IMG/VR virus record: IMGVR_UViG_3300047673_000207
Coordinates: 1-41,864 of that record
Length of the DNA: 41,864 nt
Origin: a virus
Direction: 5' to 3' (one strand)
Shown: piece by piece, positions 15,509 to 34,250 of the stretch
Numbering within the stretch: the stretch's first letter is position 1
Layout of the letters: each line of letters begins with the position of its first letter
Notes under the pieces: model-generated
Told to the model about the DNA's origin: nothing
Seen by the model: the letters and a program-made list of their open reading frames with translations, nothing else
Database searches by the model: none
Translations under genes and position numbers: made by a program

Positions 15509-16624
15509 TCAACCCGCCGCGAGGTGCTCCTCGCCTTTGATCGCGACCTCGTCCAGGTCGTCACCGGGCTCGGCCGCAGGCAGCTTGGCCATGAAGTCGC
15601 CGATGATGGCGTCAATCTCGTCTTTGGCCCATGGAGGCGCTTCGGCAAGTGCCTTCTCCACTGACGGACGCGCGGCGATTGCTTCGATGCCTTCGCGGCT
15701 GGTCTGCTTATCACATGCCTGGATCAGGCCGTTGATCCACATGACCCACGCCTCGCGCGTGCGTTCTGGCGCCGGCGCTGTGTCCTTGCCGGTCACGATC
15801 GGTTGCTTGGTGGTGTTGCCAGTGCCGTTGCAGGCGAAGCATTTCTTGCCGGGGCGCCATTCGCCTGTGCCCTGGCATTTCGGGCAGACATCGGCAGGAT
15901 CGTGGTGATCGTCGGCGGTATCGTAGACGGTCGTGTCCTGGACACTCTCGCCGCGAGGCATGGTGGCGGCTGCCGACTTCAGCGGGATACTGTCGTTCAG
16001 TGCCTTGCGGCGGGCCGCATCAACTTCGGCAAGCGCCATCTGGGACAAGCGGCGATCGGGCTGCGGCTGCTCCTCTGCGGTGCCATCGATGGTCGGCCCC
16101 ATTTCCTCCCGCGAGTAGACGCCAAGGATCACAGCAGGCGTCCAGCGCCGCGCCCAGACCCGCGCGCCATGATAGACGAGCTGCTGGTCGGGTTGCTTTA
16201 CCCACAGCGGATTGGAAGTCTTCGCGTCCGCTAGTTTGACCTCGACAGTGCGCGGGTTGGTCTCGCCGCGTCTGGTGGCGGTCACGGTGATGCTGCGGGC
16301 ATCGCCAACACCTGCGAAGTCGTAATCGATATGGCCGACGATTGCGCCGCTGTTCTCGACCGCAGCAGCCACCAGCTTACCCTCGATCATCTGTTTGCCT
16401 TGGATGATGCTGGTCGCCTGGGCAACAGCAAATGGTGACATGCCCCAGCGCATAGCCAACTCTATGACCATCAGGCAGTCGCCGGGGCTGTCCCACAGAT
16501 GCTTTGGCACAGTGCGGGCTCCGGCCATGAACTGTGCGAGCCGGATCGCCTCGTCCATGCTCCGTGGCACCAGAGCGGTACTGCTGGAGTAGGATGCGAC
16601 TTCGGTGGTGGTGACTGCGTTCAT
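15509..16624 (-). CDS. RecT-like single-strand annealing protein with C-terminal CxxC zinc motif
   Basis: The protein has 371 residues. Residues 20-175 fit the RecT-type phage annealing family: 'SMDEAIRLAQFMAGARTVPK', 'GDCLMVIELAMRWGMSPFAV', 'IIQGKQMIEGKLV', 'QLVYHGARVWARRWTP' and 'ILGVYSREE'. After a variable linker, residues 247-268 form 'CPKCQGTGEW' and 'CFACNGTG', two CxxCxGxG knuckles like the DnaJ zinc motif. The last 90 residues are helical. The likely role is strand annealing in recombination-dependent replication or repair. The downstream Gp157-like stop lies 2 bases before this ATG, so the genes form an operon. Confidence 0.65.
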   Translation of the reverse strand: MNAVTTTEVASYSSSTALVPRSMDEAIRLAQFMAGARTVPKHLWDSPGDCLMVIELAMRWGMSPFAVAQATSIIQGKQMIEGKLVAAAVENSGAIVGHIDYDFAGVGDARSITVTATRRGETNPRTVEVKLADAKTSNPLWVKQPDQQLVYHGARVWARRWTPAVILGVYSREEMGPTIDGTAEEQPQPDRRLSQMALAEVDAARRKALNDSIPLKSAAATMPRGESVQDTTVYDTADDHHDPADVCPKCQGTGEWRPGKKCFACNGTGNTTKQPIVTGKDTAPAPERTREAWVMWINGLIQACDKQTSREGIEAIAARPSVEKALAEAPPWAKDEIDAIIGDFMAKLPAAEPGDDLDEVAIKGEEHLAAG

Positions 16625-25836: not shown

Positions 25837-25869
25837 AGCCTCTGGCCAACGAACAAGGTGAGTGCTCGA

Positions 25870-26442
25870 ATGGTTGACAACATCATTGATCAGCAATCCG
25901 CCCACGCCAAGGATTTGGCGGAGAGACGCCGCGCTACAACGCAACGATACCGAGAGAAAAACCGCGAACAGATAAGAGCCCAATCGCGCCCTTACACTAA
26001 GGCATACCGGCTAGCTAATCTTGAAGCGGTTAAAGCCAAAAAACGGGCAAAATACGCCGCAGATGGCGAATACGACAGACGATACGCTAGAGAGTGGTAC
26101 GCACGAAACGCAGAGGCCGCAAAGGCAAAGCATGAGGCGTGGCTCGCGGCTAATCCAGGCAAGCGAGTAGAATACGAAACCCGCAGACGAGCCAGGAAAG
26201 CTGGTGCTGGTGGTGACCACACCGTCGATGATGTCCTGGCGATCGGCGAAGCGCAGGGGTGGAAGTGCCATTGGTGCAGCAAATCAGTACGGAAGCGCTA
26301 CCACATCGACCATATAATCCCGCTGTCCAAAGGCGGCGGAAATGGACCGCGCAACCTGTGCGTCACTTGCCAACCTTGTAACCAAAGCAAGCATGCCAAG
26401 GACCCGATTGATTGGGCGAGGCAGCTTGGAAGGCTCTTGTGA
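25870..26442 (+). CDS. HNH endonuclease next to large terminase
   Basis: ATG 25870 has AAGGTG upstream; GTG 25858 is an alternative. Residues 10-115 are a basic, helical, Arg/Lys/Ala-rich region that should bind DNA. Residues 131-175 are the HNH core: 'WKCHWC', 'YHIDHIIPLSKGGGNGPRNL' and 'CVTCQPCNQSK', with zinc-binding Cys pairs (C133/C136, C167/C170) and catalytic His. It ends 3 bases before terL. Phage HNH proteins beside terminases can assist packaging cleavage or act as homing nucleases. The first 350 bases are clearly lower in GC than neighbouring genes, suggesting separate acquisition. Confidence 0.8.
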   Translation: MVDNIIDQQSAHAKDLAERRRATTQRYREKNREQIRAQSRPYTKAYRLANLEAVKAKKRAKYAADGEYDRRYAREWYARNAEAAKAKHEAWLAANPGKRVEYETRRRARKAGAGGDHTVDDVLAIGEAQGWKCHWCSKSVRKRYHIDHIIPLSKGGGNGPRNLCVTCQPCNQSKHAKDPIDWARQLGRLL

Positions 26443-26445
26443 GAG

Positions 26446-28596
26446 ATGCCAGCGACAGCGCAACGTGTGAGCTTGAGCTACCGCCCGAGGCCGCAGTTCG
26501 TAGCCTTCCATAAGCGGAAGCAGCGCTGGGCATGCATAGTTGCTCATCGGCGGTGCGGCAAGACTATGGCGACCGTGATGGATCTGATTGATGCCGCGCT
26601 GCGGTGCGATAAGCCGGATGGTCGTTTCGCTTATGTCGCACCCACTTATGCGATGGCTAAAGATATTTCGTTCGGTTACCTGAAGCGCTTCACGACGGAC
26701 ATACCTGGGGTCGAACAGCGCGAGTCAGACCTGTCAGTGATCTTCCCTAATGGGGCTCGAGTGCGTTTGTATGGGGTCGAGAGCTACGATCGGTTGCGTG
26801 GTATATACCTCGATGGCTGCATCCTGGATGAAGCTGGCGATATGCCGCCTCAGGCGTGGCCCGAGGTTATTCGTCCGGCTCTTGCTGATCGTCAGGGATG
26901 GGCCGTGTTCATTGGAACCCCAAGGGGCAGGAACGAATTTCATCGCATTCACGAGCATGCGCAGCTCGCTCCCGACTGGTTCTCGCTGACGCTCCGGGCT
27001 GACCAAACTGGACTGCTGCCGCAGCAGGAACTGGACGACATCAGGAATATGCTGACGCCCGAAGCCTATGCGGCTGAAATGCTCTGTAGTTTCGACTCCG
27101 CAATCTTAGGGGCATACTTCGCTAAGGAGTTGGATGAAGCACAAGCGGCTGGTCGTATAACGTCAGTCCCTTATGATCCCATCCTCCCTGTGCATACTGC
27201 TTGGGACCTAGGTGTGTCTGACAGCACCGCCATCTGGTTCTTTCAGGTCTCCCGCGCCGAAGTTCGCGTCATCGACTACTACGAAGCATCCGGCTACGGC
27301 CTCCCACATTACGCTGCAGTGCTCACCTCGCGCGGCTACACCTACGGCACCGACTACCTGCCGCACGACGCACAGGCCCGACAACTCGGCACCGGCCGCT
27401 CGCTCTGGGAGACGCTGCACAGCCTCACCAATCGCATCCCGCGCGTGTTGGCACAGCAGAACCTGATGGACGGCATCAACGCCGCGCGCATCAGCATCGC
27501 CTCGTGCTGGTTCGATACATACAAGTGTCATGACGGCCTCGAGGCGCTGCGTGCCTATCGCGCCGACTACGACGACAAGCGCAAGGTGTTCACGGATCGT
27601 CCGCGGCACGACTGGGCCAGCCACGGATGCCTCACTGGCGATGCCATAGTTCTGACCGACCATGGGTTGCGGCGTATCGACCAGATGAAGGCCGGCGACC
27701 GTGTTTGGACACCGGCAGGATATGCCGTGGTCGAATGGGCTGGAGTGGTGAAGCGGGCAGCCGAACTCGTGCGGATTGAACTACCAGACGGGCGCAGGCT
27801 GACGTGTACGCCAGAGCATAAAATCGCGACAAATCGCGGTTTCGTTCATGCTGATGCTTTGCGATATCTGGACGTTGTGCTATCTGGTAACGAATGGCAA
27901 AGCTACCTGATAGGATTGTGTTCGAGGGTTGCGTCTACCGGCTATCGGGCAATTATTACCGCCGCCATGAGTGGGGAAAGCCAGGACCGTCCAACCTTCA
28001 TCGAGCGGTGTGGGAGCATCATAACGGCCCTGTGCCGGACGGCTGTGACATACATCATCGGGACGGCAACCCACTCAACAATGCTCCCGGCAACCTTGAA
28101 TGCGTCGATGCCTCTGAACACAAGCGACAGCACGCATTGGAGCGACGCGCCCGCGGAGAACTCCACGACCCATCTGACTTTTGCCGCGAGCAGGCTGCTG
28201 AGTGGCACGCCAGCCCCGATGGCATCGAATGGCATCGGCAACACGGCAAAGCGACATGGGACACGCGCAAGTGGGTTGCTGTTGTTTGCCGCCAGTGTGG
28301 TCAGAGCTTTGCTACGCCTTATCCCACGCGGGCGAAGTGGTGCCATATCAATTGTAAGATGGAAAACCTACGCCAGCGGCGCGGACGCCCAGTTGGTCTA
28401 CGACCTGACCGTAAAAGACCACGCCTGCTATCAGGCAAACGGGTTGCTGGTCAGTAACAGCGACGCGTTCCGCTACCTAGGCCTCGCCTGGCGGCAGATG
28501 CAGCCTGAGAAGCCGCCGAAGCCGCCAGAGGACTCGTGGGACCGGGCTTTCGCCCGCGCATCGCAGAGCACAGTCGAGAGTTGGCGCGTGGCATGA
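26446..28596 (+). CDS. terL: Terminase large subunit interrupted by an intein
   Basis: The continuous frame encodes 716 residues: 439 of terminase and a 277-residue intein at 395-671. Walker A is 'CIVAHRRCGKTMA' (33-40 core) and Walker B 'CILDEA' (125-130). The nuclease starts at 'HTAWDLGVSDST' with Asp254. The last nuclease motif, H-D-W-A-S-H-G / S-D-A-F-R-Y, is split exactly by the intein, so the protein can work only after splicing. It acts as the ATP-driven packaging motor and headful or site nuclease at the portal. GC content shifts visibly around 27240, with the 5' part poorer in GC, suggesting a recombination joint. Confidence 0.9.
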   Translation: MPATAQRVSLSYRPRPQFVAFHKRKQRWACIVAHRRCGKTMATVMDLIDAALRCDKPDGRFAYVAPTYAMAKDISFGYLKRFTTDIPGVEQRESDLSVIFPNGARVRLYGVESYDRLRGIYLDGCILDEAGDMPPQAWPEVIRPALADRQGWAVFIGTPRGRNEFHRIHEHAQLAPDWFSLTLRADQTGLLPQQELDDIRNMLTPEAYAAEMLCSFDSAILGAYFAKELDEAQAAGRITSVPYDPILPVHTAWDLGVSDSTAIWFFQVSRAEVRVIDYYEASGYGLPHYAAVLTSRGYTYGTDYLPHDAQARQLGTGRSLWETLHSLTNRIPRVLAQQNLMDGINAARISIASCWFDTYKCHDGLEALRAYRADYDDKRKVFTDRPRHDWASHGCLTGDAIVLTDHGLRRIDQMKAGDRVWTPAGYAVVEWAGVVKRAAELVRIELPDGRRLTCTPEHKIATNRGFVHADALRYLDVVLSGNEWQSYLIGLCSRVASTGYRAIITAAMSGESQDRPTFIERCGSIITALCRTAVTYIIGTATHSTMLPATLNASMPLNTSDSTHWSDAPAENSTTHLTFAASRLLSGTPAPMASNGIGNTAKRHGTRASGLLLFAASVVRALLRLIPRGRSGAISIVRWKTYASGADAQLVYDLTVKDHACYQANGLLVSNSDAFRYLGLAWRQMQPEKPPKPPEDSWDRAFARASQSTVESWRVA
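27628..28458 (+). other. Intein within the large terminase (residues 395-671)
   Basis: The first residue is Cys395, starting block A 'CLTGDAIVLTDHGLRRIDQM' followed by 'KAGDRVWT'. Block B is 'RLTCTPEHKIATNRGFVHAD' with the TxxH motif. Blocks F and G are 'VYDLTVKDHACYQANGLLVS' then N671, followed by extein Ser672. The penultimate residue is Ser instead of the usual His, a known but less common variant. The in-frame middle (about residues 485-645) is Thr/Ser/Ala-rich and has no LAGLIDADG or HNH motif. Instead an HNH gene lies there in another frame. Confidence 0.88.
27894..28457 (+). CDS. HNH homing endonuclease nested out of frame inside the terL intein
   Basis: The 187 residues are read in the -1 frame relative to terL. 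The HNH core is 'NLHRAVWEHHNGPVPDG', 'CDIHHRDGNPLNNAPGNLEC' and 'VDASEHKRQH' (catalytic His54/His55, Asn62/63). A C-terminal zinc knuckle follows ('VCRQCGQSF', 'AKWCHINCK'; C132, C135, C150, C154). An in-frame TAA lies just before the start (TAACGAATG), so it is an independent gene, not a fusion. It has no strong ribosome-binding site. The stop (28455-28457) overlaps the last intein codon. It is expected to cut intein-free terL alleles and spread the intein. Confidence 0.8.
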   Translation: MAKLPDRIVFEGCVYRLSGNYYRRHEWGKPGPSNLHRAVWEHHNGPVPDGCDIHHRDGNPLNNAPGNLECVDASEHKRQHALERRARGELHDPSDFCREQAAEWHASPDGIEWHRQHGKATWDTRKWVAVVCRQCGQSFATPYPTRAKWCHINCKMENLRQRRGRPVGLRPDRKRPRLLSGKRVAGQ

Positions 28597-30186: not shown

Positions 30187-31230
30187 ATGCCAGACAACAG
30201 CCTAGCCCCACCGAACATGCCCTGGCTGTGGCAGCCCAACAGCCCCGTGGGCCAGCCCAACGGCCTCGGGCCGCCGATGCTCAACTATGCCGCGCCACCC
30301 AGCCCCACGAGCCAGGGCGCAGGCGTGGCAGCAGCGGGCCAGCAGGCGTGGCAGTGGCTCCAGGACCAGCGCGTCGAGAGCGTGCGCCAGGGCCTGCTCG
30401 ATCCCGACACCGGCCTGCCGACGCAGAAGGGCGTCGTCCAGGGCGTCGGACAGACCGCGCAGGGCATCGTCATGGGCACCACCGCGCCGGGTGACGTGCC
30501 GCCCCCTGGCATCGTGGCGTATCACGGCAGCCCCGCCGACTTTAACCGGTTCGACGACCGTTTCATCGGCACGGGTGAGGGCGCGCAGGCATACGGCAGA
30601 GGGCACTATTTCGGAGGCGCGGAGGAAACTGGCCGCAACTATCGCGACGCGCTCACGCCGGAGACCATCCCCAACCCCGAGTTCAACGCAGCGCAGCAGG
30701 AATACAACGCGAAGTATAGTGCTGTGGGAAACGCTGCGGGTGCGACTGATGCAGAGTTCAATGCCGCTATTGCCGCGCGCGATGCCGCGTATGAAAAGAT
30801 GAAGAGCCTTCCCCCGACTATCCCTAATCCAGCGGCGCCCGGGCACATGTACGAGGTGAAGATCGGCGCTGATCCGGAGCATTTCCTGCACTGGGATAAG
30901 CCGCTGTATCAACAGAGCGACGCGGTAAAGCAATCAGGTATTATACCCAAGACGCCTGACTACCAGATGCAGACCGGCGGCGAGTTCCTGGAACGCCTGT
31001 CCAGGCGCCTCGGTGGTTCCGACGTTGCCGCCAAGGCATTGCAGGATGCGGGTATTCCTGGGGTTCGCTACCTCGACCAAGGCAGCCGTGGCGCTGGGCA
31101 GGGCACGCACAACTACGTCGTGTTCGACCCCGCCATGATCGACATCCTGCGCAAGTATGGCCTCGCCGGCCTGATCGCAGGCGGGGGCGCCGCAGCCGCC
31201 GCAACCCAGCAACAGCAGCCGAGCCAGTGA
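30187..31230 (+). CDS. ADP-ribosyltransferase-like (ART-PolyVal type) protein
   Basis: The protein has 347 residues. After a Pro/Gly-rich N-terminus (100 residues), the domain begins 'IVAYHGSPADFNRFDDRFIG', then 'GEGAQAYGRGHYFGGAEETG'. It ends with 'ALQDAGIPGVRYLDQGSRGA', 'GTHNYVVFDPAMIDILRKYG' and a hydrophobic Gly/Ala tail. This order (HGS, G-x-G-x-YF, late acidic VVFD block) is that of ART-like domains of phage polyvalent proteins. It lies just upstream of the portal, suggesting that it is packaged and delivered into the host to modify a target. No catalytic Glu is assigned with confidence. Confidence 0.6.
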   Translation: MPDNSLAPPNMPWLWQPNSPVGQPNGLGPPMLNYAAPPSPTSQGAGVAAAGQQAWQWLQDQRVESVRQGLLDPDTGLPTQKGVVQGVGQTAQGIVMGTTAPGDVPPPGIVAYHGSPADFNRFDDRFIGTGEGAQAYGRGHYFGGAEETGRNYRDALTPETIPNPEFNAAQQEYNAKYSAVGNAAGATDAEFNAAIAARDAAYEKMKSLPPTIPNPAAPGHMYEVKIGADPEHFLHWDKPLYQQSDAVKQSGIIPKTPDYQMQTGGEFLERLSRRLGGSDVAAKALQDAGIPGVRYLDQGSRGAGQGTHNYVVFDPAMIDILRKYGLAGLIAGGGAAAAATQQQQPSQ

Positions 31231-31245
31231 GCGACACCGCGCACC
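31227..31245 (+). repeat. Portal-start repeat, copy R1
   Basis: GTGAGCGACACCGCGCACC overlaps the stop of the ART-like gene (GTGA). It matches copy R2 at 16 of 19 bases and encodes the same start, M-S-D-T-A-H, before a stop three codons later. See R2 and R3. Confidence 0.6.
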
Positions 31246-31252
31246 AGTAATA

Positions 31253-31507
31253 TCAGCGCCGTGGCTCGAACGCCTGCAACAACTTGTGCGCCAGGTCAGT
31301 CGCAATATGCCGCGCCAGGCTCTCGGCTCGCTCGCGGCGCATGGCCCAGTCGCTCATCGCTGCCGGATCGAAGGCCGGCGGTGCGCGGCCGATGTGGAGA
31401 TCCAGCGCCTGCTCACGCCCGATCTGGTAGCGCAGCATCATCGGTTCGCCGCTTGAGGCGTACGGCGACTGATCGATCCTGATCGATATGGTTACAGCGT
31501 CTTCCAT
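31253..31507 (-). CDS. Small hypothetical protein on the minus strand between R1 and R2
   Basis: ATG 31507 is preceded by GGGAGGGTGAGAGC, a strong ribosome-binding site. The 84 residues (MEDAVTISIRIDQSPYASSG, ALDLHIGRAPPAFDPAAMSD, ATDLAHKLLQAFEPRR) are beta then helical; no family is recognised. It runs against the late operon and is bounded by two copies of a portal-start repeat, suggesting insertion. Confidence 0.6.
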   Translation of the reverse strand: MEDAVTISIRIDQSPYASSGEPMMLRYQIGREQALDLHIGRAPPAFDPAAMSDWAMRRERAESLARHIATDLAHKLLQAFEPRR

Positions 31508-31528
31508 GCTCTCACCCTCCCGTGGTCC

Positions 31529-31547
31529 ATGAGCGATACCGCACACC
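31529..31547 (+). repeat. Portal-start repeat, copy R2
   Basis: ATGAGCGATACCGCACACC matches R3, the actual portal start, at 17 of 19 bases and R1 at 16 of 19. It lies between the two minus-strand genes and opens a 36-codon plus-strand frame that ends in the second minus gene. Confidence 0.65.
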
Positions 31548-31549
31548 GA

Positions 31550-32017
31550 TCACTCGTCCGACTGCTCTGCGGCCTTTCGCTGGTTTTCATACATCTGATA
31601 CGCTTGGTGCCACGCCTCGCTGTGCCTGGGATCGATTGAGAGGGAGGCGCGACGCGCGAAGTCCTCTCGCCGCTCACGCTCAGCCTTCTGACGCAAGGGT
31701 TCATCTTCCAACCACTTGCGCCCCTCGTATTCAAGCAGCGTCTCGGGGCCGAAACGGCGCTGATGCATAACCTCTCTGATGCGGCTCCCAACCCAGGCCG
31801 TTGATCGACCGAACTCCTTTCCGAGCGCGCGGTAATCGCGCTGGCCACCGAGATATGCCTGCCAGACAGCATCCCTGATCCTCTGGTTCTGTGCCTCTCG
31901 CAATTCGTACTTCGTCGTTTGCTTCGGGCGCGCCTTCTTGGCCGCGCTCAGCCTGACCAGCGCCGCGTCATAAGCGGCTTTCGCCTCGACGTATTCACGC
32001 TCCGCATCGTCCGACAT
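31550..32017 (-). CDS. Hypothetical helix-turn-helix-like protein on the minus strand between R2 and R3
   Basis: ATG 32017 follows GAGGAGGTTCCG. The 155 residues start with a charged coiled coil (AEREYVEAKAAYDAALVRLS). A helix-turn-helix-like part follows (RIRDAVWQAYLGGQRDYRAL, GKEFGRSTAWVGSRIREVMH), then an Arg/Glu-rich tail. It could be a small regulator. It is divergent from the portal, with only 19 bases between the starts, and bounded by repeats R2 and R3. Confidence 0.6.
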   Translation of the reverse strand: MSDDAEREYVEAKAAYDAALVRLSAAKKARPKQTTKYELREAQNQRIRDAVWQAYLGGQRDYRALGKEFGRSTAWVGSRIREVMHQRRFGPETLLEYEGRKWLEDEPLRQKAERERREDFARRASLSIDPRHSEAWHQAYQMYENQRKAAEQSDE

Positions 32018-32036
32018 CGGAACCTCCTCACGCTCC

Positions 32037-32055
32037 ATGAGCGATACCGCAATCC
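32037..32055 (+). repeat. Portal-start repeat, copy R3 (true portal start)
   Basis: ATGAGCGATACCGCAATCC is the first 19 bases of the portal gene and the third copy of this repeat. No ribosome-binding site precedes it; the upstream bases serve the divergent minus-strand gene. Confidence 0.65.
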
Positions 32056-34250
32056 ATCTCCACGTCCATACCGGCGACCGCGGCCCCGACACGCCGCCGG
32101 CGATCCGTGACCTGACGGGCGGCGATCCAGACGCTTACCCGAAGGATCTTGATGACCTTCATGGGAAGCTAGTCAGGTGGTTCGAAGAGTCAGAAATGGC
32201 TCGGATGGATGAAATAGAATTAGCTCAGCGTGACCGTGAATATTTTGATGGGTTTCAATGGACCAGAGAAGAACTCAAACTATTAAAGGAGCGGGGTCAA
32301 CCCGCTATCGTAATAAATAAGGTGGCTGATAAGGTTCAGCTATTATGCGGGATGGAAAGAAAGGCTCGTACTGACCCCAAGGCGTTTAGTCGCACGCCAG
32401 CCGAGGAGGATCGCGCCGACGCTGCCACGCAGGCATTGAGATACATTGCGGATGACAACGACTTCTCCATCGTGCGCAGCGAAGTGTTCTCCAACATGCT
32501 CATCGAAGGCGCTGGTGGCGCTGACCTGGGCCTCGAGGACGACGGGCAAGGCTCGTGCAACATCACGATCACCACCATCCCGTGGGATCGCATCTGGTAC
32601 GATCCGCACAGCCGCAGCTACGATTTCAGTGATGCGCGCTATAAGGGCATGGTCATCTGGACCGATAGGGACGCCCTCGAGGAGATGTATCCCGACGCGG
32701 ACGATGTGATTGAGAGCAGCTTCAGCAGCACCGACTACCAGTACAACGACCGGCCGGAAACGGCGTTCTGGACCGACAACAACCGCAGACGTGTGCGGCT
32801 CGTGCAATGCGACTGGGCCGAGCGTGGCACCTGGTGGCGCGCGACCTATACCAAGTCGGGGCTGCTGGCCGCGCCACAGCGCTCCAAGTTCAAGGACCGC
32901 AAGGGCAAGTCGTGCAGCGGGCTGCTGCTGCAATCCAGCTACATCAATCGCGAGAACCAGCGTTACGGCATGGTGCGGGGCCTGATCAGCCTACAGGACG
33001 AGATCAACAAGCGGCGCTCCAAGGCGCTGCACCTGTTGTCAGTCCGCCAGGTCGTCGCAGAGAAGGGCGCTGTGCCGGATGTCGATAAGGCACGCCGCGA
33101 GGTCGCCAAGCCGGACGGCTACGTGGAGGTGATGCCGGGGCTGAAGTTCGAGATCGAGCAGACCGCGGACCTCGCCGCAGGTCAGTTCCAGTTGCTGCAA
33201 CACGCCACCGCCGAGATGCAACTCTCGGGGCCGAATGCAGCCATGTCGGGCACCGACCCGCGCGAGTTGTCGGGCCGTGCAGTATTGGCGATGCAAGCAG
33301 GGGGTGCCGCGCAGAACGAGCCGTTGGCCGACGCGCTGCGGTTCTGGAGCAGGCGGGTATATGAAGTTTGTTGGCAAGCCGCAAGGGAATACTGGTCGGG
33401 CGGAAAATGGGTCAGGGTCACGGATAACCTAGGGGAGACGCGTTGGGTTGGAATTAACCGACCCGTCAGACTGATGGATCGCTTGGCTGATATGCCAGAG
33501 CAACATCGGGCTATGGTTATGCAACAAATGCAACTACAGCCTGGCGATCCTAGATTGCAGCAGGTAGTTGGTATCGAGCATGACATTTCGGATTTAGATG
33601 TAGATATCACCATTGAAGAGGGCATAGATATTCCATCGCTACAAGCGGAAGAATTTCAGTCGCTAGTCCAACTGGCTTCGGTACAGCCAGGATTGATCCC
33701 TGGCGATGTCTTAATCGCGGCGTCAGGGCTGCGCGACAAGGATCAGATCCTCGAGCGCATGAAGGAGCACCAGCAGCAGCAGCAGCAGGCACAGCAGCAG
33801 GCAGGGCAACTCGCAACACAGCACGCGCAAGCGGACATCGCTGGCAAGCAGGCGAAAGCGCAGGCGGACATGGCGCTGGCGCAGGAGCGCAAGGTCAACG
33901 CCGCGGCCAACGTGCATTCCGTGCATGGCGAGTTCAGCGCACCACCCTACGGGCAGCCGCATGTGGCGCCGGACAACCCGCCTGGCGCGTCACAGCCGAT
34001 GCAGCCGCCGTTGGACCCTGAGCAGATGGATCCGCAAATGGCAGCGATGCACCACATGGCCGATCTGCAGAAGAAGGCCGCCGACATCAGCAAGACGCGC
34101 GCCGACACGATGCTCACCGCGGCGAAGATCCCGCACACCGCACAGCAGACGCTGCACACCGCGCACCAGACGCACAACACCGCTGTGACCACGAACAGAT
34201 TGCTCCGCACGCCGATTCCACAGCCAGCACCGCCAGGGAGCGCGCCATAA
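32037..34250 (+). CDS. Portal protein, P22-like
   Basis: The 737 residues have features of P22-type portals: 'REYFDGFQWTREELKLLKER', 'VINKVADKVQLLCGMERKAR', 'EGAGGADLGLEDD', 'INRENQRYGMVRGLISLQDE', then 'INKRRSKALHLLSVRQVV' and 'DPRELSGRAVLAMQAGGAAQ'. A Gln-rich helix and a helical C-terminal extension follow, corresponding to the portal barrel. It forms the dodecameric DNA channel at one vertex, docking to terminase and then gp4-like protein. Bases about 32150-32390 and 33350-33720 use more A/T-rich codons than the rest, indicating mosaic exchange inside the gene. Confidence 0.85.
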   Translation: MSDTAIHLHVHTGDRGPDTPPAIRDLTGGDPDAYPKDLDDLHGKLVRWFEESEMARMDEIELAQRDREYFDGFQWTREELKLLKERGQPAIVINKVADKVQLLCGMERKARTDPKAFSRTPAEEDRADAATQALRYIADDNDFSIVRSEVFSNMLIEGAGGADLGLEDDGQGSCNITITTIPWDRIWYDPHSRSYDFSDARYKGMVIWTDRDALEEMYPDADDVIESSFSSTDYQYNDRPETAFWTDNNRRRVRLVQCDWAERGTWWRATYTKSGLLAAPQRSKFKDRKGKSCSGLLLQSSYINRENQRYGMVRGLISLQDEINKRRSKALHLLSVRQVVAEKGAVPDVDKARREVAKPDGYVEVMPGLKFEIEQTADLAAGQFQLLQHATAEMQLSGPNAAMSGTDPRELSGRAVLAMQAGGAAQNEPLADALRFWSRRVYEVCWQAAREYWSGGKWVRVTDNLGETRWVGINRPVRLMDRLADMPEQHRAMVMQQMQLQPGDPRLQQVVGIEHDISDLDVDITIEEGIDIPSLQAEEFQSLVQLASVQPGLIPGDVLIAASGLRDKDQILERMKEHQQQQQQAQQQAGQLATQHAQADIAGKQAKAQADMALAQERKVNAAANVHSVHGEFSAPPYGQPHVAPDNPPGASQPMQPPLDPEQMDPQMAAMHHMADLQKKAADISKTRADTMLTAAKIPHTAQQTLHTAHQTHNTAVTTNRLLRTPIPQPAPPGSAP

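Follow-up and report, generated by a model that had tools for sequence, protein, structure and literature searches.

Three copies of a portal gene start beside two inserted minus-strand genes in a metagenomic phage contig are probably successive starts left by one-sided recombination

Results

The start of the portal gene is present three times in a 41,864-base phage contig, and the three copies are probably successive starts of one gene, left behind by one-sided recombination that added first gene A and then gene B in front of the portal. The analysed stretch of DNA (the window) comprised the whole IMG/VR record IMGVR_UViG_3300047673_000207 (41,864 bases). The L-numbers used below denote related IMG/VR contigs, and all contigs were metagenomic.

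Organisation of the portal start region

The exact sequence RTGAGCGAYACCGC occurred three times in the window, against 0.01 copies expected by chance over both strands of its 41,864 bases, and three exact copies were reached in none of 100 shuffles of the window. The sole exact sites were R1 (GTGAGCGACACCGCGCACC, 31227), R2 (ATGAGCGATACCGCACACC, 31529) and R3 (ATGAGCGATACCGCAATCC, 32037), all on the plus strand and each reading M-S-D-T-A. R2 and R3 were identical over 18 of 18 nucleotides counted from three bases before the ATG. The preliminary description of this DNA had named three repeats with this reading, two minus-strand genes between them, a first repeat overlapping the stop of the preceding gene (GTGA) and a real portal start at R3; all of these points were borne out by the ORFs and profile matches listed below.

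15509..16624, minus strand: RecT-like ssDNA-annealing protein (PHROG 561, E 8e-55)
30187..31230, plus strand: ART-like gene, 347 aa (ORF list; stop overlaps R1)
31227..31250, plus strand: R1, putative GTG start scar of the original portal (the L005 and L016 portals start here)
31253..31507, minus strand: gene A, 84 aa, putative first inserted gene, no function assigned (ORF list)
31508..31528: gene A leader with its minus-strand ribosome-binding site, between gene A and R2
31529..31546, plus strand: R2, putative ATG scar left by the second portal start (A-only phages use it as their live start)
31550..32017, minus strand: gene B, 155 aa from its ATG, putative second inserted gene (ORF list)
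32018..32036: gene B leader, between gene B and R3
32037..32051, plus strand: R3, live portal start (ORF list, PF16510, context in relatives)
32037..34250, plus strand: P22-like portal gene, 737 aa (PF16510, E 1e-117; PHROG 156, E 4e-108)

R1 overlapped the TGA with which the ART-like ORF (347 codons) ends, and now opens a frame of seven codons (M-S-D-T-A-H-Q-stop). The bases of the gene A leader also preceded the live portal start in L003, and those of the gene B leader preceded the portal start in the gene C phages L012 and L013. The label of the ART-like gene was weak (PF18760, 22.7 bits with a cut-off of 31.2, E 1.8e-4); the gene also matched PHROG 873 (E 2e-16). Judged from third-position bias (89, 106 and 287 differences at codon positions 1, 2 and 3 among 10 copies), gene A is a real gene. 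It had no match in profile searches of Pfam, PHROG and NCBIfam, and its predicted fold was of low confidence (pLDDT 72). Gene B was predicted to be all-helical (AlphaFold2, mean pLDDT 81, pTM 0.38), with weak Foldseek matches to HTH proteins (best E 0.31), and its product, with an HTH-like middle part, is probably DNA-binding. Neither gene matched a PDB structure with E <0.001 or gave a significant transposase or integrase match in Pfam, PHROG or NCBIfam; an IS256 match of gene B was insignificant (E 0.085). Both would be antisense to the surrounding late genes. Between 30900 and 32700 no promoter-like sites were recognised, although the host may use promoters of another type, and there was one terminator-like site, the same number as in shuffles. 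Elsewhere in the window, the C-terminal part of the terminase large subunit ORF (26446-28596) resembled an intein (Hint matches, and an Intein_splicing match, E 2e-6, that stayed below the cut-off), and an HNH/endonuclease VII gene (25858-26442; PHROG 1035, E 8e-20) lay directly before this ORF.

Empty and occupied sites in related contigs

Two portal-based viral scans returned 48 and 80 loci, partly on the same contigs. Gene A was found at 15 loci, gene B at 6, gene C at 9, gene D at 5 and an HNH gene at 43. No named phage gave a near DNA match to positions 20000-41864 of the window; the four best named-phage portal relatives were 34-40% identical, and three of them were Pseudanabaena phages. 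When genome contigs were scanned with the portal alignment, none of 44 pattern matches was confirmed.

In L005 and L016, which lack the minus-strand genes, the upstream ORF ended on the portal GTGA and a single R-type start was present (ORFs checked). Only these two were used as clean GTGA examples, because the ART tail of L014, which was first called empty and is still labelled so in the portal tree, seems frame-shifted. An ATGA version of the empty junction was recognised by sequence context in L097-L099, L104, L108-L110, L119, L123 and L124. Given empty junctions of both kinds, an overlap of the ART-like stop with the portal start is most simply taken as the ancestral state. The earlier proposal that R1 was the original portal start depended on relatives with a single R-type start directly after the ART-like gene; L005 and L016 do have one, overlapping the ART-like stop, their portals start at the place of R1, and 37 of the 40 bases upstream of R1 are those of L005.

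Gene A alone, with a GTG scar on its left and an ATG live start on its right, was present in L003, L007, L017 and L028 (L034, near-identical to L017, was excluded from this count), and gene A without a long scar in L006, L008, L009, L011 and L038. Other genes occupied the same place on the minus strand: gene C in L012, L013 and L015, gene D in L010, L020, L026 and L032, and gene B in L029-L031 and L090. The plus-strand gene E often preceded the minus-strand inserts C, D and B. Stacks of two genes were formed by A and B (window, L002, L004), A and C (L100) and A and D (L069). In L100 and L069 the new gene was joined within the gene A leader at the same CACCCTCC; no R copy separates the two genes there because the join precedes the start codon. 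Absence of a gene at the junction in close relatives, as for moron-type genes, was thus seen in the empty L005 and L016 and in the four scarred A-only contigs. The stepwise insertion suggested previously is supported by these observations, as A-only phages exist and R2 lies exactly where their portal starts. On L139 (contig 3300006175_000277, the same contig as L010), gene C lay away from the portal, at a second location for this gene.

Scars at the portal start

A start-motif scan (at most one mismatch, from 4 kb upstream to 120 nt into the portal) of 77 contigs, with 8 near-duplicates dropped, gave 60 plus-strand matches, namely 48 live starts, 10 scars and 2 other gene starts; there was no match on the other strand in 223,456 bases. 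The scars were located in the window (2), L003, L007, L017, L028, L045, L090, L105 and L113. Six scar types were each compared with an insertion-free relative, or, for window R2, with the live start of L003. Window R1 shared a 14-nt prefix with L005 (13 of 14 matching), and the L003 R1 a 14-nt matching prefix with the same contig (38/40 upstream nucleotides in agreement). The matching prefix was 15 nt for window R2 against L003 (40/40 upstream), 18 nt for L090 against L096 (30/40) and 16 nt for L113 against L109 (40/40), and the prefix of L045 against L035 was 19 nt with 17 matching (37/40). Judged from these comparisons, the left copies are dead remnants of earlier portal starts, matching over 12-19 nt, and the live right copy probably arrived together with the new gene. 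The preliminary description had advised looking for such repeats at the borders of other inserted genes, and they were found beside other genes in L090 and L045 and beside an HNH gene in L105 and L113.

The old start codon was still present in the left copies, as GTG in the A group and as TTG in L090; the right copy had ATG. Like the empty L096, the L090 scar had TTG and the ACAGCCTAC allele found in its lineage, and the live start was ATG; in the HNH case the right copy was a quite different sequence, ATGTCTGACGC. Shorter remnants, read by eye, were 7 nt in L008, 6 nt in L020 and 5 nt in L015. The junctions of L100 and L069 fell before the portal start, and these two, together with L006, L009, L011, L012 and L038, had no recognisable long scar. 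For 11 of the 11,946 candidate ORF starts (nested starts counted, 7 near-duplicate contigs dropped), a 13-nt copy was present at most 3 kb upstream; this portal start accounted for five of the 11.

Scars of different lineages (window R1 and R2; L003, L045 and L113) shared a CAY codon at position 6 (M-S-D-T-A-H or M-S-D-T-T-H), which was present in none of the live portal starts compared by context. CAY pairs with the start codon as a short dyad (GTG/CAC, ATG/CAT). The scars could accordingly come from an unsampled portal allele, or they could be other than pure relics. Three copies of ATGCCGCTTGACGCTCACGC in the distant relative L046 (150, 524 and 982) resemble a promoter-like segment repeated in front of small genes, and were for this reason left uncounted as a scar example.

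Breakpoints near the portal start

Breakpoints were defined as the ends of blocks of at least 97% identity between pairs of contigs, with 16 near-duplicate contigs dropped. Of the 69 pairwise boundaries, 61 were no more than 3 kb from the portal start; the 27-base zone from -10 to +16 contained 11, which represent about five events. L003 and the window switched at -3 (99.95% identity over 4131 bp rightward, 83.6% leftward), and L010 and L011 at -1 (gene D against gene A, right arms 99.79% identical). Further switches lay at -9 (L100), at +10 (L065) and at +15 (L109 against L113, L146 and L148). All five positions were at shared sequence, as in homologous exchange. The L003/window and L010/L011 switches could reflect chimeric assembly, each being represented by a single contig on at least one side. 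Blocks of this identity containing gene A reached 80-97 nt into the portal (L003/L007, L003/L011, L003/L028), and on the portal tree (nucleotides 301-1350, 54 rows, 7 states) the upstream gene changed at least 24 times. Just left of the portal in L065, on the reverse strand, the gene A leader was joined at ATGAGCGATAC to a different plus-strand gene. That gene also starts with ATGAGCGATAC and reads MSDTLANQ... (compare MSDALTNQ... in L036), so that other genes, too, may be joined through the common M-S-D start.

HNH genes at the portal start

New beyond the preliminary description is that HNH endonuclease genes occupy the same portal-start spot. They lay directly upstream of the portal in L025, L027, L095, L103 and L113 (PF01844, E about 1e-10; the L113 protein has 260 aa), and L105, L146, L148 and L153 carried close kin of the portal-side HNH gene. 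The window itself had no HNH gene at its portal start. The leader of the HNH module (L113:1902-2000; also L025, L027, L095 and L103) contained a conserved TGTGCTATAA-type sequence, a strong hairpin (z -2.6) and a ribosome-binding site. A second kind of HNH gene (HNH_3, PF13392, E 2e-10) lay on the minus strand inside the 3' part of the ART-like gene of L020 (3467-4072).

Left of +15, L113 was 100% L109-like. Its HNH gene and about 200 nt of the portal were L105-like, followed by a mixed stretch, and from about +540 the sequence was mostly 95-100% L109-like, with two 60-base bins at 90 and 92%. This composition suggests that a phage of L109 type with an empty site received the HNH gene together with about 200 nt of portal, and the tract has the pattern of a homing event. 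Two hallmarks of intronless homing could be recognised among these contigs, though not in the window itself. Phages with the endonuclease gene (L105, L113, L146, L148, L153) stood beside phages without it (L109, L108, L110), and flank co-conversion was represented by the L113 tract, a single event whose left boundary was common to L146 and L148. None of the eight HNH-bearing contigs of the motif scan had the start motif at the live start. This recoding was considered as proof of immunity to the HNH nuclease and rejected, because the start is also recoded in the gene E phages L018 and L019, and because codon 2 is already freed once the RTGA overlap is lost.

Discussion

The history that we favour would begin with a portal start overlapping the ART-like stop (GTGA). 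A first recombination would have placed gene A, on the minus strand, and a fresh portal start before the portal body, the first bases of the old start staying behind as R1; a second event would have brought gene B, turned the start beside gene A into the scar R2 and made R3 the live start. Each event was most likely one-sided. The right end would be homologous, lying in the conserved ~90 nt with which the portal begins, and the left end imprecise, in most cases 12-19 nt into the earlier portal frame. The incoming block would consist of a gene, its leader and the portal 5' end, its left join could fall anywhere past the ART stop, and the stretch between would become the scar. A scar would remain because the left end must pass the RTGA overlap, or else the ART-like gene loses its stop; with stop and start overlapping, a join that keeps both genes must therefore repeat the overlap. 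A free left join and a homologous right one would account for different start codons, variable scar lengths, stacking by the portal and the movement of gene A with 80-97 nt of portal. This course draws on what can be read in the contigs: empty sites, scars in independent lineages, stacks, identity switches close to the portal start, the HNH gene found in the same place and a single tract of homing pattern. A RecT-type annealing protein would do the joining, the RecT-like gene of the window being a candidate recombinase, and HNH breaks would start some of the events. Relaxed recombination by Rad52-like phage recombinases was reportedly described by Martinsohn et al. 2008. The clustering of scars at 12-19 nt exceeds what this model needs and might, among other causes, come from a preferred break site. 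Among the contigs there was no donor-recipient pair for the gene B event; a B-only phage with a left scar ending ...CACACCGATCA would give the source of the right flank of R2.

Homing breaks might instead have driven all events, with an HNH nuclease cutting near +15 and the unrelated genes A-D captured during repair. We consider this doubtful. The HNH genes directly upstream of the portal in several contigs, the L113 tract with its left end at +15, the scars of non-HNH genes ending in the same 12-19 nt zone and the absence of the start motif from the live starts of HNH-bearing contigs all speak for it. However, passages of PMC2988022 describe the free-standing endonucleases of T4 as cutting hundreds of bases or more from their gene, so that the end of a scar need not be the cut site; moreover, recoded starts also occur behind gene E with no HNH gene adjacent, and the scars of L008, L015 and L020 are shorter. 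More speculative still is the picture of the portal start as a landing pad, at which a circulating homing-type HNH nuclease would break the DNA ~15 nt into the portal frame, repair would use any block carrying a matching portal 5' end, and genes A-D would be collected serially, the scars recording the order.

It is improbable that the R copies are functional elements, such as exchange sites, hairpins or regulatory sites, and not relics. Crossovers do fall at R, and RTG/CAY hairpins are possible in R1 and in the L113 scar, but the folding of R1 and R2 was near that of shuffles (z -0.93 and -1.75) and no promoter-like site was seen around the copies, and a hairpin or regulatory role was rejected on these grounds; in addition, R1 or R2 is missing from many relatives, and R1 differs between the window and L003.

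The preliminary description had read the repeats as a duplicated target start site, and this part of it did not survive. A transposon- or integrase-like step that inserted each gene and duplicated about 15-18 bp of the portal start would agree with the identity of R2 and R3 and with five of six scar types ending 14-18 nt into the portal frame. Yet the left and right copies differ in start codon, the right copy of the HNH case is another sequence, other junctions at the site retain 5-7 nt or none, some falling before the start, neither gene A nor gene B has a transposase or integrase match in Pfam, PHROG or NCBIfam beyond the insignificant IS256 one, and blocks of high identity span gene A and the adjoining portal. 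With copies and lengths so unequal, target-site duplication was rejected as highly improbable, and recombination with one imprecise end fits better. That an assembler joined unrelated pieces at short shared sequence is very unlikely: the contigs are metagenomic and the switch points lie in shared blocks of 80-90 nt, but the window, L002 and L004 share the A+B array, gene C (L012/L013), gene B (L029-L031) and the HNH gene (L113/L146/L148) recur in differently numbered samples, and the scars differ by lineage.

Under the favoured one-sided recombination, the empty state and those with one and two genes can be seen at a single site, together with the old starts in their order and a nuclease gene in the same place. 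Gene gain by phages between packed, overlapping essential genes has so far been argued mostly from before-and-after comparisons. Random illegitimate joining and homology-guided exchange become testable against each other at one defined site, and the order in which other phages gained genes may be readable from such scars. No description of the portal-start arrangement was found in the open-access literature searched, which does not imply its absence from print.

Morons of lambdoid phages are extra genes between conserved late genes, often in opposite orientation and variably present among relatives. The genes described here resemble them in these respects, but several of them lie one after another at one site, with scars of the interrupted gene start left behind, and neither A nor B had a recognisable promoter or terminator between 30900 and 32700. 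As in the intronless homing of the T4 Seg and Mob endonucleases, in the passages of PMC2988022 that treat it, an intergenic HNH gene lies by an essential gene and its flank is co-converted (L113); in contrast, no HNH gene lies at this site in the window, and profile searches did not show genes A-D to be endonucleases. In T4 intron homing, illegitimate repair of double-strand breaks with homology on one side (Parker et al. 1999, as related in PMC2988022) likewise gives a homologous junction on one side and microhomology or an imprecise join on the other, although that is a laboratory intron system, whereas our case is deduced from natural contigs at a gene start. Sections of De Paepe et al. 2014 (PMC3945230) on relaxed recombination by Rad52-like phage recombinases describe mosaic exchange at short diverged homology; such exchange is similar to that proposed here, and the window has a RecT-like gene, but its part in the events is putative. 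Finally, in lactococcal Skunavirus, HNH genes lie between terminase and portal, and a conserved one is tied to packaging (HrdP), according to portions of PMC12724721; HNH genes near the portal are common to both cases, whereas in the phages studied here only some members have them, and unrelated genes occur at the same place.
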